A DNA stretch of 64,000 nt. Origin: an uncultured Paracoccaceae bacterium (GTDB taxonomy: Bacteria; Pseudomonadota; Alphaproteobacteria; Rhodobacterales; Rhodobacteraceae). The stretch's first letter is position 1; each line of letters opens with the position of its first letter. The position numbers and the translations under genes are program-made. The stretch lies in assembly GCA_947497985.1 (NCBI GenBank), contig CANMIX010000001.1, positions 124,001 to 188,000 on the forward strand. The letters are read 5' to 3'. The notes below the pieces were generated by a model that saw nothing but the letters and a program-made list of their open reading frames with translations, had not been told where the DNA came from and did not search any database. This document shows positions 26,050-57,788 of the stretch, piece after piece.

Positions 26050-26162
26050 CACCGGCGCCCCGCGTACGGTGAGTTGATTTTACCCTACGGCTTCGGTACA
26101 GGCACGGATCGGCCATCATCCTCGATCAAGTTGCCGCAACCTTGTTAAAACGGACCCTGTTC

Positions 26163-26792
26163 ATGTCTCGCACGTATCTGCCCGGTATCGCCGCCATGGC
26201 TGCCATTGTTGTCGCCTCTAATATTCTGGTTCAATTCCTGTTTGGGAATTGGCTTACATGGGGGGCATTCACCTATCCGCTGGCCTTTCTGGTGACAGAC
26301 GTGATGAACCGTGTGTACGGAGTCGCAGCCGCCCGCAAAGTGGTGCTGGCAGGGTTTGTGACCGGTGTGATTTGTTCCTTGATCGGCAGTCAGATCATGC
26401 TGGAATTTGGTCCAGCTGTGCCATTGCGCATCGCGGTTGCCTCGGGCATGGCGTTTTTGATCGCACAACTGACAGACGTGGCCGTGTTCAATCGGTTCAA
26501 AGCCGGTGTCTGGTGGCGCGCGCCGCTGGTTTCGACCCTCGTTGGCTCGGCCCTGGATACCGTGATCTTCTTTTCCATCGCCTTCTCGGCTTCCGTCACC
26601 TTGTTTGGTGCCGGTGCGGACGCTGCAATCAACTGGTCCTGGGAAGCCGTTCCGTTCATGGGCGGCGGGGCGCTTTTGCCGCTTTGGTTCTCGCTTGCCT
26701 TTGCCGATTGGTGCGTAAAGCTGACGCTCGCGCTGGTCGCACTTGTTCCTTTCCGCATCATCGTGGGGCGGATTACGGCACGTTCCACATGA
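26163..26792 (+). CDS. yhhQ: Queuosine precursor transporter (YhhQ family)
   Basis: This ~209-residue inner-membrane protein has about six helices and the family signature AFTYPLAFLVTDVMNRVYG, with ARKVVLAGFVTGVICSLIG after it. E. coli YhhQ imports the queuosine precursors preQ0 and preQ1. The ATG at 26163 gives MSRTYLPGIAAMAAIVVASN; a TTG 21 bases upstream is possible. I looked for a preQ1 riboswitch in the 113 bases upstream and found no recognisable one. Confidence 0.9.
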   Translation: MSRTYLPGIAAMAAIVVASNILVQFLFGNWLTWGAFTYPLAFLVTDVMNRVYGVAAARKVVLAGFVTGVICSLIGSQIMLEFGPAVPLRIAVASGMAFLIAQLTDVAVFNRFKAGVWWRAPLVSTLVGSALDTVIFFSIAFSASVTLFGAGADAAINWSWEAVPFMGGGALLPLWFSLAFADWCVKLTLALVALVPFRIIVGRITARST

Positions 26793-26863
26793 TTTTGTTT
26801 TGACATCTATCCATTCTGTGGCACGCTGAAGCTACGCGTAACATTCAGAAAGGAGGTGCTCTA

Positions 26864-26920
26864 GTGTCTATTGGGAACTTGGAGATCGGTGTCGGAACAG
26901 TTTGGGAGGCACAAAGCTAA
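26864..26920 (+). CDS. Putative 18-residue leader/micro-protein
   Basis: GTG at 26864 follows AAAGGAGG with seven bases of spacing, a near-perfect Shine-Dalgarno and stronger than most in this window. The product would be MSIGNLEIGVGTVWEAQS, ending at TAA 26918-26920. It has one tryptophan and no run of a single amino acid, so it does not look like an amino-acid attenuator. The stop lies inside a hairpin. It may be a regulatory uORF or a small protein; translation is not proven. Confidence 0.4.
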   Translation: MSIGNLEIGVGTVWEAQS

Positions 26921-26988
26921 GGCAGTCCTTAGTGGAGTAAAATTCTAAATTGGTGACCGCCTAACCGGCGCACCTCCGAATACTCAAG

Positions 26989-27030
26989 AAGGGCTGTTCG
27001 TTGCGCAATTTCGAACAGCCCTTTTGTTTT
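26989..27030 (+). terminator. Strong terminator between the RNA candidate and arfB
   Basis: AAGGGCTGTTCG (26989-27000) pairs with CGAACAGCCCTT (27012-27023) around an 11-base loop, followed by TTGTTTT. It separates the upstream transcript from arfB. Confidence 0.9.
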
Positions 27031-27084: not shown

Positions 27085-27504
27085 ATGCTGCATATCAACA
27101 ATCAAATCACCATTCACGACTGGGAACTGACGGAGCAATTCATTCGTGCTTCGGGTCCTGGTGGGCAAAATGTAAACAAGGTTTCGACTGCGGTTGAGCT
27201 GCGATTTGAAGCTGAACGCTCTCCCTCTTTGCCACCTGCGGTCAAGAAGCGCCTGCGCCGTCTGGCTGGTCGGCGCTGGACCAAGGAAGGAGCCTTGATC
27301 CTGTTCTGCGATGAAACCCGTAGCCAGGCACGCAATCGCGACTTGGCCCGGGAACGTCTGACCGAATTGATCCAAAAAGCGCTGGTCGCACCCAAGCGGC
27401 GCATTGCGACCAAACCGACCCGCGGATCCGTTCAACGTCGCCTGACCAGTAAAAAACAACGTGGCGAGGTCAAAAACCTGCGTGGCAAGGTGCAAGACGA
27501 CTAA
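27085..27504 (+). CDS. arfB: Alternative ribosome-rescue factor ArfB (YaeJ/ICT1 type)
   Basis: This 139-residue peptidyl-tRNA hydrolase releases ribosomes stalled on non-stop mRNAs. The release-factor loop is intact: RASGPGGQNVNKVSTAVELRF with GGQ at residues 26-28. The C-terminal ~40 residues are strongly basic (KRRIATKPTRGSVQRRLTSKKQRG), as needed to enter the empty mRNA channel. Domain 1/2 of release factors is absent, so it is not RF1 or RF2. AAAGGA lies upstream of the ATG. The next gene starts 24 bases later, possibly co-transcribed. Confidence 0.95.
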   Translation: MLHINNQITIHDWELTEQFIRASGPGGQNVNKVSTAVELRFEAERSPSLPPAVKKRLRRLAGRRWTKEGALILFCDETRSQARNRDLARERLTELIQKALVAPKRRIATKPTRGSVQRRLTSKKQRGEVKNLRGKVQDD

Positions 27505-57729: not shown

Positions 57730-57753
57730 TGCTGCTACCCTTCCAGATAAGTG

Positions 57754-57788
57754 CCTCTCGTTGGGGAGAGGTGTCCCGTCGACCGGGA
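57754..57788 (-). promoter_or_regulatory. serC leader RNA (putative serC motif)
   Basis: Read on the minus strand, two adjacent hairpins lie 25 bases before the serC ATG: TCCCG-GTCGA-CGGGA (57788-57774) and CCTCTC-CCCAAC-GAGAGG (57771-57754). A serC RNA motif has been described upstream of serC operons in alphaproteobacteria; position and two-hairpin form agree, but I match it from memory without a covariance model. It would act on serC, the hypothetical gene and serA. Confidence 0.6.

Follow-up and report, generated by a model that had tools for sequence, protein, structure and literature searches.

The 64,000-nt stretch of an uncultured Paracoccaceae genome analysed here (the window, from an assembly of 47 contigs) contains a free-standing RNA gene, a unit of ~230 nt at window positions 26800-27030 that comprises a promoter-like sequence, a Shine-Dalgarno (SD) sequence, an 18-codon open reading frame (ORF) opened by GTG, hairpins and a terminator. 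It lies between two genes that we take to be yhhQ (26142-26792; Pfam Vut_1), upstream, and arfB (27085-27504; Pfam RF-1 domain), downstream, both names having been assigned by readers of the sequence. The best named relatives of this arfB belong to Roseobacter, Ruegeria, Shimia and similar genera, on which basis the family compared below is taken to be Rhodobacteraceae.

The promoter-like TTGACA-N16-CACGCT (26800-26827; all features of the element are on the plus strand) is conserved upstream of the SD in relatives: TTTGACA, with up to two mismatches, lies 49 to 55 nt ahead of the SD in 53 of 59 upstream stretches, and TTGH occurs at -60 to -36 in 121 of 128 family loci, not deduplicated, against 32.0 expected from base shuffling. 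A strict sigma-70 scan of the window reported no promoter at the element. An intrinsic terminator, AGAAGGGCTGTTCG...CGAACAGCCCTTTT (26987-27025), closes the unit; a simple terminator scan restricted to loops of 3-8 did not list it. The conserved promoter-like sequence and the terminator agree with the original prediction, made from the window alone, of a discrete unit closed by a strong terminator.

The SD AAAGGAGG (26849-26856) is followed by seven bases and GTG (26864-26866), which opens the micro-ORF VSIGNLEIGVGTVWEAQS (26864-26920) of 18 codons ending in TAA (26918-26920), at the coordinates first proposed. The SD forms part of an extended complement to the 3' tail of 16S rRNA (26848-26864), in which GAAAGGAGGTG is contiguous and is followed by one mismatch and one G-U over 17 nt. 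As predicted, the SD is also matched 110 bases downstream: GGAGGTGC at 26852-26859 is perfectly reverse-complementary to GCACCTCC at 26970-26977, an anti-SD stretch that mimics the 16S tail. The SD core GGAGGTG (26852-26858) and its partner at 26971-26977 form helix P1, and G26970 is also able to pair with C26859.

Across the window, Rfam at gathering score returned only the serC leader (RF00517, 70.1 bits) at 57730-57781 on the minus strand, an ordinary member of a known family, and no match to the 26800-27030 element.

Conserved fold and covariation

The single-sequence fold of the window element had a predicted energy of -67.1 kcal/mol (z = -2.58; 5 of 200 shuffles equally low). Relatives were collected with a filter demanding a CTCC-type stretch downstream, so that the presence of an anti-SD in this set is partly by construction; L026, L035, L050, L059 and L061, missed by the filter, were added by hand. 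Alignment A1 omitted seven of 59 sequences (L002, L012, L017, L023, L027, L046 and L068), and A2 omitted L033 as well. Across 52 sequences, most of which had come through this motif filter, a six-helix structure was paired in 95.1% of cells, and 22 of its 36 pairs had changed on both sides. Compensatory change, which the original prediction had named as the thing to look for with a covariance model, exceeded 500 shuffles, none of which reached the observed value on any of five measures, and sliding the partners by one column reduced pairing to 55-62%.

The double changes were concentrated in P2 (helix 3; GTTTGGG at 26900-26906 with TCTAAAT at 26944-26950; 86.5% of cells paired, six of seven pairs changed on both sides) and the terminator (helix 6; 97.7%, 11 of 11), which together held 137 of 182 double-changed cells. 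Helix 2, GTCGG (26891-26895) with CCGGC (26965-26969), was paired in 96.5% of cells with two of five pairs changed on both sides, and helix 5, GGT (26952-26954) with GCC (26959-26961), in 94.2% with two of three. The hairpin predicted over the micro-ORF stop (helix 4; CTAAGG-CAGT-CCTTAG, 26917-26932) is present, with 92.9% of cells paired over three core pairs and one pair changed on both sides. P1 was unbroken in 52 of 52 sequences; its changes were one-sided with the pair kept and were limited to G-C/G-U and U-A/U-G, as would be expected if its 5' strand were held by complementarity to 16S rRNA. Comparison among relatives shows a 3' half carrying covarying helices and a 16S-tail imitation that pairs with the putative ribosome landing site.

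We also assembled a larger family set without the CTCC filter, in which a locus needed only a GTCGGRACA motif and the ten leading bases of the SD, with at most one substitution among these. Of 143 loci examined, 128 were located, giving 124 distinct sequences, and 15 were missed. Among the missed loci, the element is present, wholly or in part, in L012, L034, L046, L057 and L060; L018, L030, L036, L051-L054, L058 and L062 have none within 330 nt ahead of arfB, where L066 has just 37 nt of sequence. The longest helix between the SD and downstream sequence was 7-9 bp in 120 of the 124 sequences compared to 106 of 620 base-shuffled controls, while outside the family it was only slightly longer than in shuffles (mean 8.4 vs. 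7.4). Shuffles for this test, the class-locus tests and the 16S and upstream tests were plain base shuffles, and all compared sequences are related, such that the counts are not independent.

Pairing probabilities were computed for 117 relatives, seven of the 124 sequences being lost and the anti-SD being misplaced in at least one (L009). Predicted SD:anti-SD pairing had a median of 0.93, with the SD unpaired at a median of 0.01 and the anti-SD stretch at 0.02; on energetics alone, the complete RNA is expected to be closed. When the SD was kept open, the anti-SD for the most part paired elsewhere (median 0.27 unpaired), and with a ribosome placed at the stop, predicted SD:anti-SD pairing still had a median of 0.91, falling to 0.02 in the window. 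Since in most relatives neither an open SD nor a stop-bound ribosome leaves a clean open state, a clean open/closed switch shared by the relatives is not predicted. The original prediction had also proposed a local hairpin (26952-26974) competing for the anti-SD. GGTG (26952-26955) can indeed pair with CACC (26971-26974) on paper, but the evidence does not support it as a conserved second state: with the SD forced open, the anti-SD paired within the preceding 45 nt at a median of 0.04 (0.15 in the window). In the consensus fold GGT pairs instead with GCC to give helix 5, which is compatible with P1. The labels "switch" and "dual-function RNA" attached to these features were inferences.

Micro-ORF and complementarity to the 16S rRNA tail

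Conservation of the micro-ORF in relatives, which the original prediction required, was evident in its length: exactly 18 codons in 120 of the 124 distinct family sequences, the window included. Start codons were GTG in 116, TTG in 5 and ATG in 3, and stop codons TAG in 49, TGA in 47 and TAA in 28. In the four sequences of other length, codon 19 reads CGG, CGG, CCG and CAA, never TGG, though the same two variable bases would allow it; the two 13-codon sequences now have CGG and CCG there. The start shifts with the SD spacer, which is 7 nt in 116 sequences, 6 in 6 and 5 in 2. Among 79 loci of the class Alphaproteobacteria outside the family, ORFs were mostly 14-36 codons long and began with ATG (47), GTG (27) or TTG (5) and in no case with CTG, so that C never fills the variable first position of NTG. 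These patterns indicate that start, stop and length are under selection and that the micro-ORF is a real one; the RNA is very probably translated.

The encoded peptide was less uniform. The ratio of nonsynonymous to synonymous change (N/S) was 0.40 in codons 2-12 and 1.07, with no sign of amino-acid constraint, in codons 13-18, and the micro-peptides differ between bacterial families. Third positions of codons 6, 7 and 12 are nearly frozen too, so the constraint on codons 2-12 may act on the RNA. We read the selection as being on ribosome passage of a fixed length more than on the peptide.

The 16S tail, GGCTGGATCACCTCCTTTC, was read in relatives (L262 and L268-L270), because the tail search did not locate a 16S gene in the window's assembly, nor in most of the other genomes. 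The 5' element GAAAGGAGGTGATCCAG is an exact 17-nt complement of this tail. All 17 nt are perfect in 60 of the 124 family sequences and 11 contiguous nt in 46, the window among them, with just the first ten or so bases having been used to locate sequences. The window element, in which the base after the 11 contiguous nt mismatches and one later pair is G-U, was predicted to form a duplex of -27.0 kcal/mol with the tail, ranking first of 21,326 sampled 24-nt window stretches on both strands; the mean over 128 family loci was -31.7 kcal/mol. A search of 14 genomes with the exact 14-nt tail TGGATCACCTCCTT gave eight places in five genomes, of which three were 16S 3' ends and five were antisense of the RNA. 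Comparison thus shows the 5' end to be an extended stretch complementary to the 16S rRNA 3' tail, a putative ribosome landing site. A maximal match is not essential, since the window and L002-L006 of the same genus have only 11 contiguous complementary nt; L265 of that genus has AAAAGGAGGTGATCCAG.

Range of the element and relation to CC2171

By blastn, the window element was recovered from 17 of 61 genomes, its own included. A covariance model built from the alignment of relatives (R1) matched 263 of 295 family genomes (262 of 294 genera) and gave no match in the other 32; the element is single-copy, G226 alone having two R1 matches. Among seven genomes searched one by one, G691 and G692 had no R1 match. 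Applied to 240 class genomes, R1 scored weakly in 20 outside the family.

Of 385 class genomes, 79 contained the shared 5' part GAAAGGAGGTGRTCCRNTGTC with one mismatch allowed, each of them a single time apart from G048, and a reversed control had no match among the genomes listed. The 16S match reached at least 15 nt in 53 of 75 of these pattern-selected loci. This long match and the Ser codon are no evidence here because the loci were selected with a pattern that already includes the TC of codon 2 and the greater part of the 16S complement. Bases outside the pattern are also common to the loci: the next base is T in 60 of 75, and CAAC occurs no more than 14 nt upstream in 58 of 75 compared to 7.6 expected. 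Downstream, 63 of 76 loci have a terminator-like hairpin (three of the 79 were dropped as too short) compared to 0 of 76 shuffles. Four loci (L144, L147, L208 and L209) were left out of the 16S and upstream analysis as their 55-58-codon ORFs look like another gene. At about position 1500 they hold secreted-looking small genes that share the extended SD and the start; these are probably another gene that exploits this landing site, or else an enlarged relative.

A relaxed cmscan against the Rfam family CC2171 (RF01867), filed as "Gene; sRNA", scored L164 at 79.7 bits, L140 at 46.2, L165 at 36.7, the window element at 30.2 and L155 at 29.2. The window element is thus far below the gathering cut-off of 75 bits, and the scores of L164, L140 and L165 bridge the gap. 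In the window's genome the element was the only RF01867 match (E = 2.3e-4), and across 14 named control genomes only Caulobacter vibrioides matched. Of 240 class genomes, 49 matched at E 0.001 and only seven exceeded the cut-off, which misses the element in all three family genomes searched. RF01867 and R1 coincide in 19 of the 20 non-family R1 places, G521 being the exception, with the reach of both models outside the family resting largely on the 5' module.

The element and CC2171 have in common the 5' module cAAcaAucGAAAGGAGGUGAUCCAGUGUCUCAU, a similar length and a terminator-like hairpin at the end, and in the cmscan alignment the CC2171 module GAAAGGAGGUGAUCCAGUGUCU differs from the window's GAAAGGAGGUGCUCUAGUGUCU at two positions. 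When the middle part is set against the RF01867 fold, non-standard pairs are numerous and a long segment stays unaligned, and the peptides differ (VSHCH...TWIV in L164, VSR..LERGVGT in the window family). On this comparison we regard the window element as related to, but diverged from, the Caulobacter sRNA CC2171 and do not file it as a member, because its score is under the cut-off and the alignment is poor beyond the 5' module and terminator. To the sRNA family already listed, our analysis adds a distribution across the class, complementarity to 16S rRNA, an ORF of fixed length and a closure that is conserved.

In a literature search of partial coverage we found no paper on CC2171 by name and none linking yhhQ with an R. 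sphaeroides sRNA. The accessible part of a study of Caulobacter Hfq ligands (PMC11005374) lists sRNAs under other names, to which CC2171 could not be matched. StsR of R. sphaeroides was rejected as the identity of the element on its length, given as 72 nt in the portion of the source available. The uORFC-8-2 motif, an attenuator before cysS in Rhodobacterales (PMC8632094), has a similar short ORF, stems and terminal U-run, but it is tied to cysS and cysteine codons, whereas the window element has no fixed downstream gene. Extended SD sites in Staphylococcus aureus (PMC13009471) likewise involve long SD:anti-SD pairings and small ORFs, though as a feature of many mRNAs rather than of one free-standing gene.

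A plasmid search with the window element gave no match, and one with the CC2171-like L164 gave five records (three Azospirillum, two Methylobacterium). L164-like DNA without a listed gene was present on large replicons of Methylobacterium bullatum (NZ_LR743510.1, 2300612-2300804), Azospirillum lipoferum (NC_016623.1, 79534-79730) and A. ramasamyi (NZ_CP029831.1, 41176-41372). Positions 97-220 of L164 gave sub-threshold matches to several microRNA families on both strands and are probably a long hairpin.

Gene neighbourhood and candidate functions

Among 49 family loci (L124 repeats the window), a yhhQ relative lay within ~1.5 kb in 45 and an arfB relative in 42. This proximity, together with a leader ORF and a terminator, is what a ribosome-mediated attenuator or leader of arfB would present, and in the window the sequence of the stop hairpin is able to form a -14.2 kcal/mol duplex with the 5' arm of the terminator. 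The resulting antiterminator was convincing by eye but failed a swap test, own pairs being no better than swapped ones (z = +1.57), so that the one candidate pairing examined showed no co-evolution and gave no support for mutually exclusive terminator and antiterminator forms. Three Paracoccus genomes do not have the RNA ahead of arfB; R1 finds one copy elsewhere in them, with yhhQ beside it and no arfB, which bears out the caution of the original prediction that proximity to arfB was suggestive only. No arfB or yhhQ relative was near any of 42 tested loci outside the family (L130-L171), and no conserved gene directly downstream emerged: 79 non-family loci had 147 neighbour proteins in 130 clusters, with the downstream gene on the same strand in 37 and on the opposite strand in 36. 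Since neighbours vary and the downstream strand is mixed, the element is a stand-alone gene and not a leader, and from these neighbourhoods the arfB link is incidental; attenuation of arfB, rejected on synteny and absent co-evolution, is largely refuted and very improbable. The idea that SD-like sequence and hairpins came together by chance, or that the element is an rRNA fragment, has in its favour that SD-like sequences are common and that the match resembles the 16S end. It is refuted, with practically no probability left to it, by the matches in 263 of 295 genomes, the covariation and the selection on start and stop, and by the element being antisense to 16S and having a start codon.

Our tentative reading, which we consider possible though short of probable, is of a stand-alone RNA that engages ribosomes and limits itself, and that may report or buffer the supply of free 30S subunits by being open or closed. 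30S subunits would load during RNA synthesis, before the 16S imitation exists; this order is possible because the anti-SD is made ~110 nt after the SD. Ribosomes would then run the 18 codons, after which the RNA would close and the landing site be lost. A self-closing, 30S-engaging RNA would best account for the match to 16S, an ORF of fixed length, the unconstrained C-terminus of the peptide and the single copy, with doubts arising from the weak SD helix outside the family, the short 16S match of the window and the lack of a clean open state. That one dedicated alphaproteobacterial RNA senses free 30S subunits (or mature 16S 3' ends) through an antisense site of up to 17 nt, a 16S-tail off-switch and a timer in the form of a short ribosome run whose peptide is irrelevant, which would make it an RNA sensor of ribosome capacity, is distinctly doubtful.

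The promoter-like sequence and terminator would also suit a conventional dual-function sRNA, which would pair with mRNAs in trans, perhaps through CCCACCTCC as anti-SD, or GGCAGCCC or CCTAACCGG, with micro-ORF translation controlling only stability or exposure. Precedent comes from Pos19 of Rhodobacter sphaeroides, which is reported to regulate mRNAs without translation of its sORF (PMC5036791). Like the element, it is a small RNA that has a terminator and a short ORF, which in this related bacterium is translated; it differs in being 219 nt long with a 150-nt sORF and in its RpoE dependence. Such an sRNA would need neither a long 16S complement nor a fixed ORF length, and predictions leave the anti-SD stretch paired (median 0.02 unpaired). 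We consider this explanation unlikely. A gene for a functional micro-peptide, with the RNA fold regulating its own translation, fits the selected-looking start, stop and frame and the low N/S of codons 2-12, but the relaxed codons 13-18, the nearly frozen third positions pointing to RNA constraint and the differing peptides of other families render it improbable.

A single-copy RNA gene kept in about nine of ten family genera, with a 5' module recognisable across the class, likely does something basic. The extended 16S-tail complement, fixed-length ORF and built-in 16S imitation point to the ribosome, not an mRNA, as the partner. If this holds, whether bacteria measure free ribosomes with an RNA becomes a testable question.

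As a separate observation on micro-ORFs outside the family, EQP, encoded by GAGCARCC-like codons, recurs in L132, L138, L140, L141, L181, L183, L184, L190, L200, L203 and L205, and these codons resemble both the GGCAGCCC motif of the family and the 16S tail.
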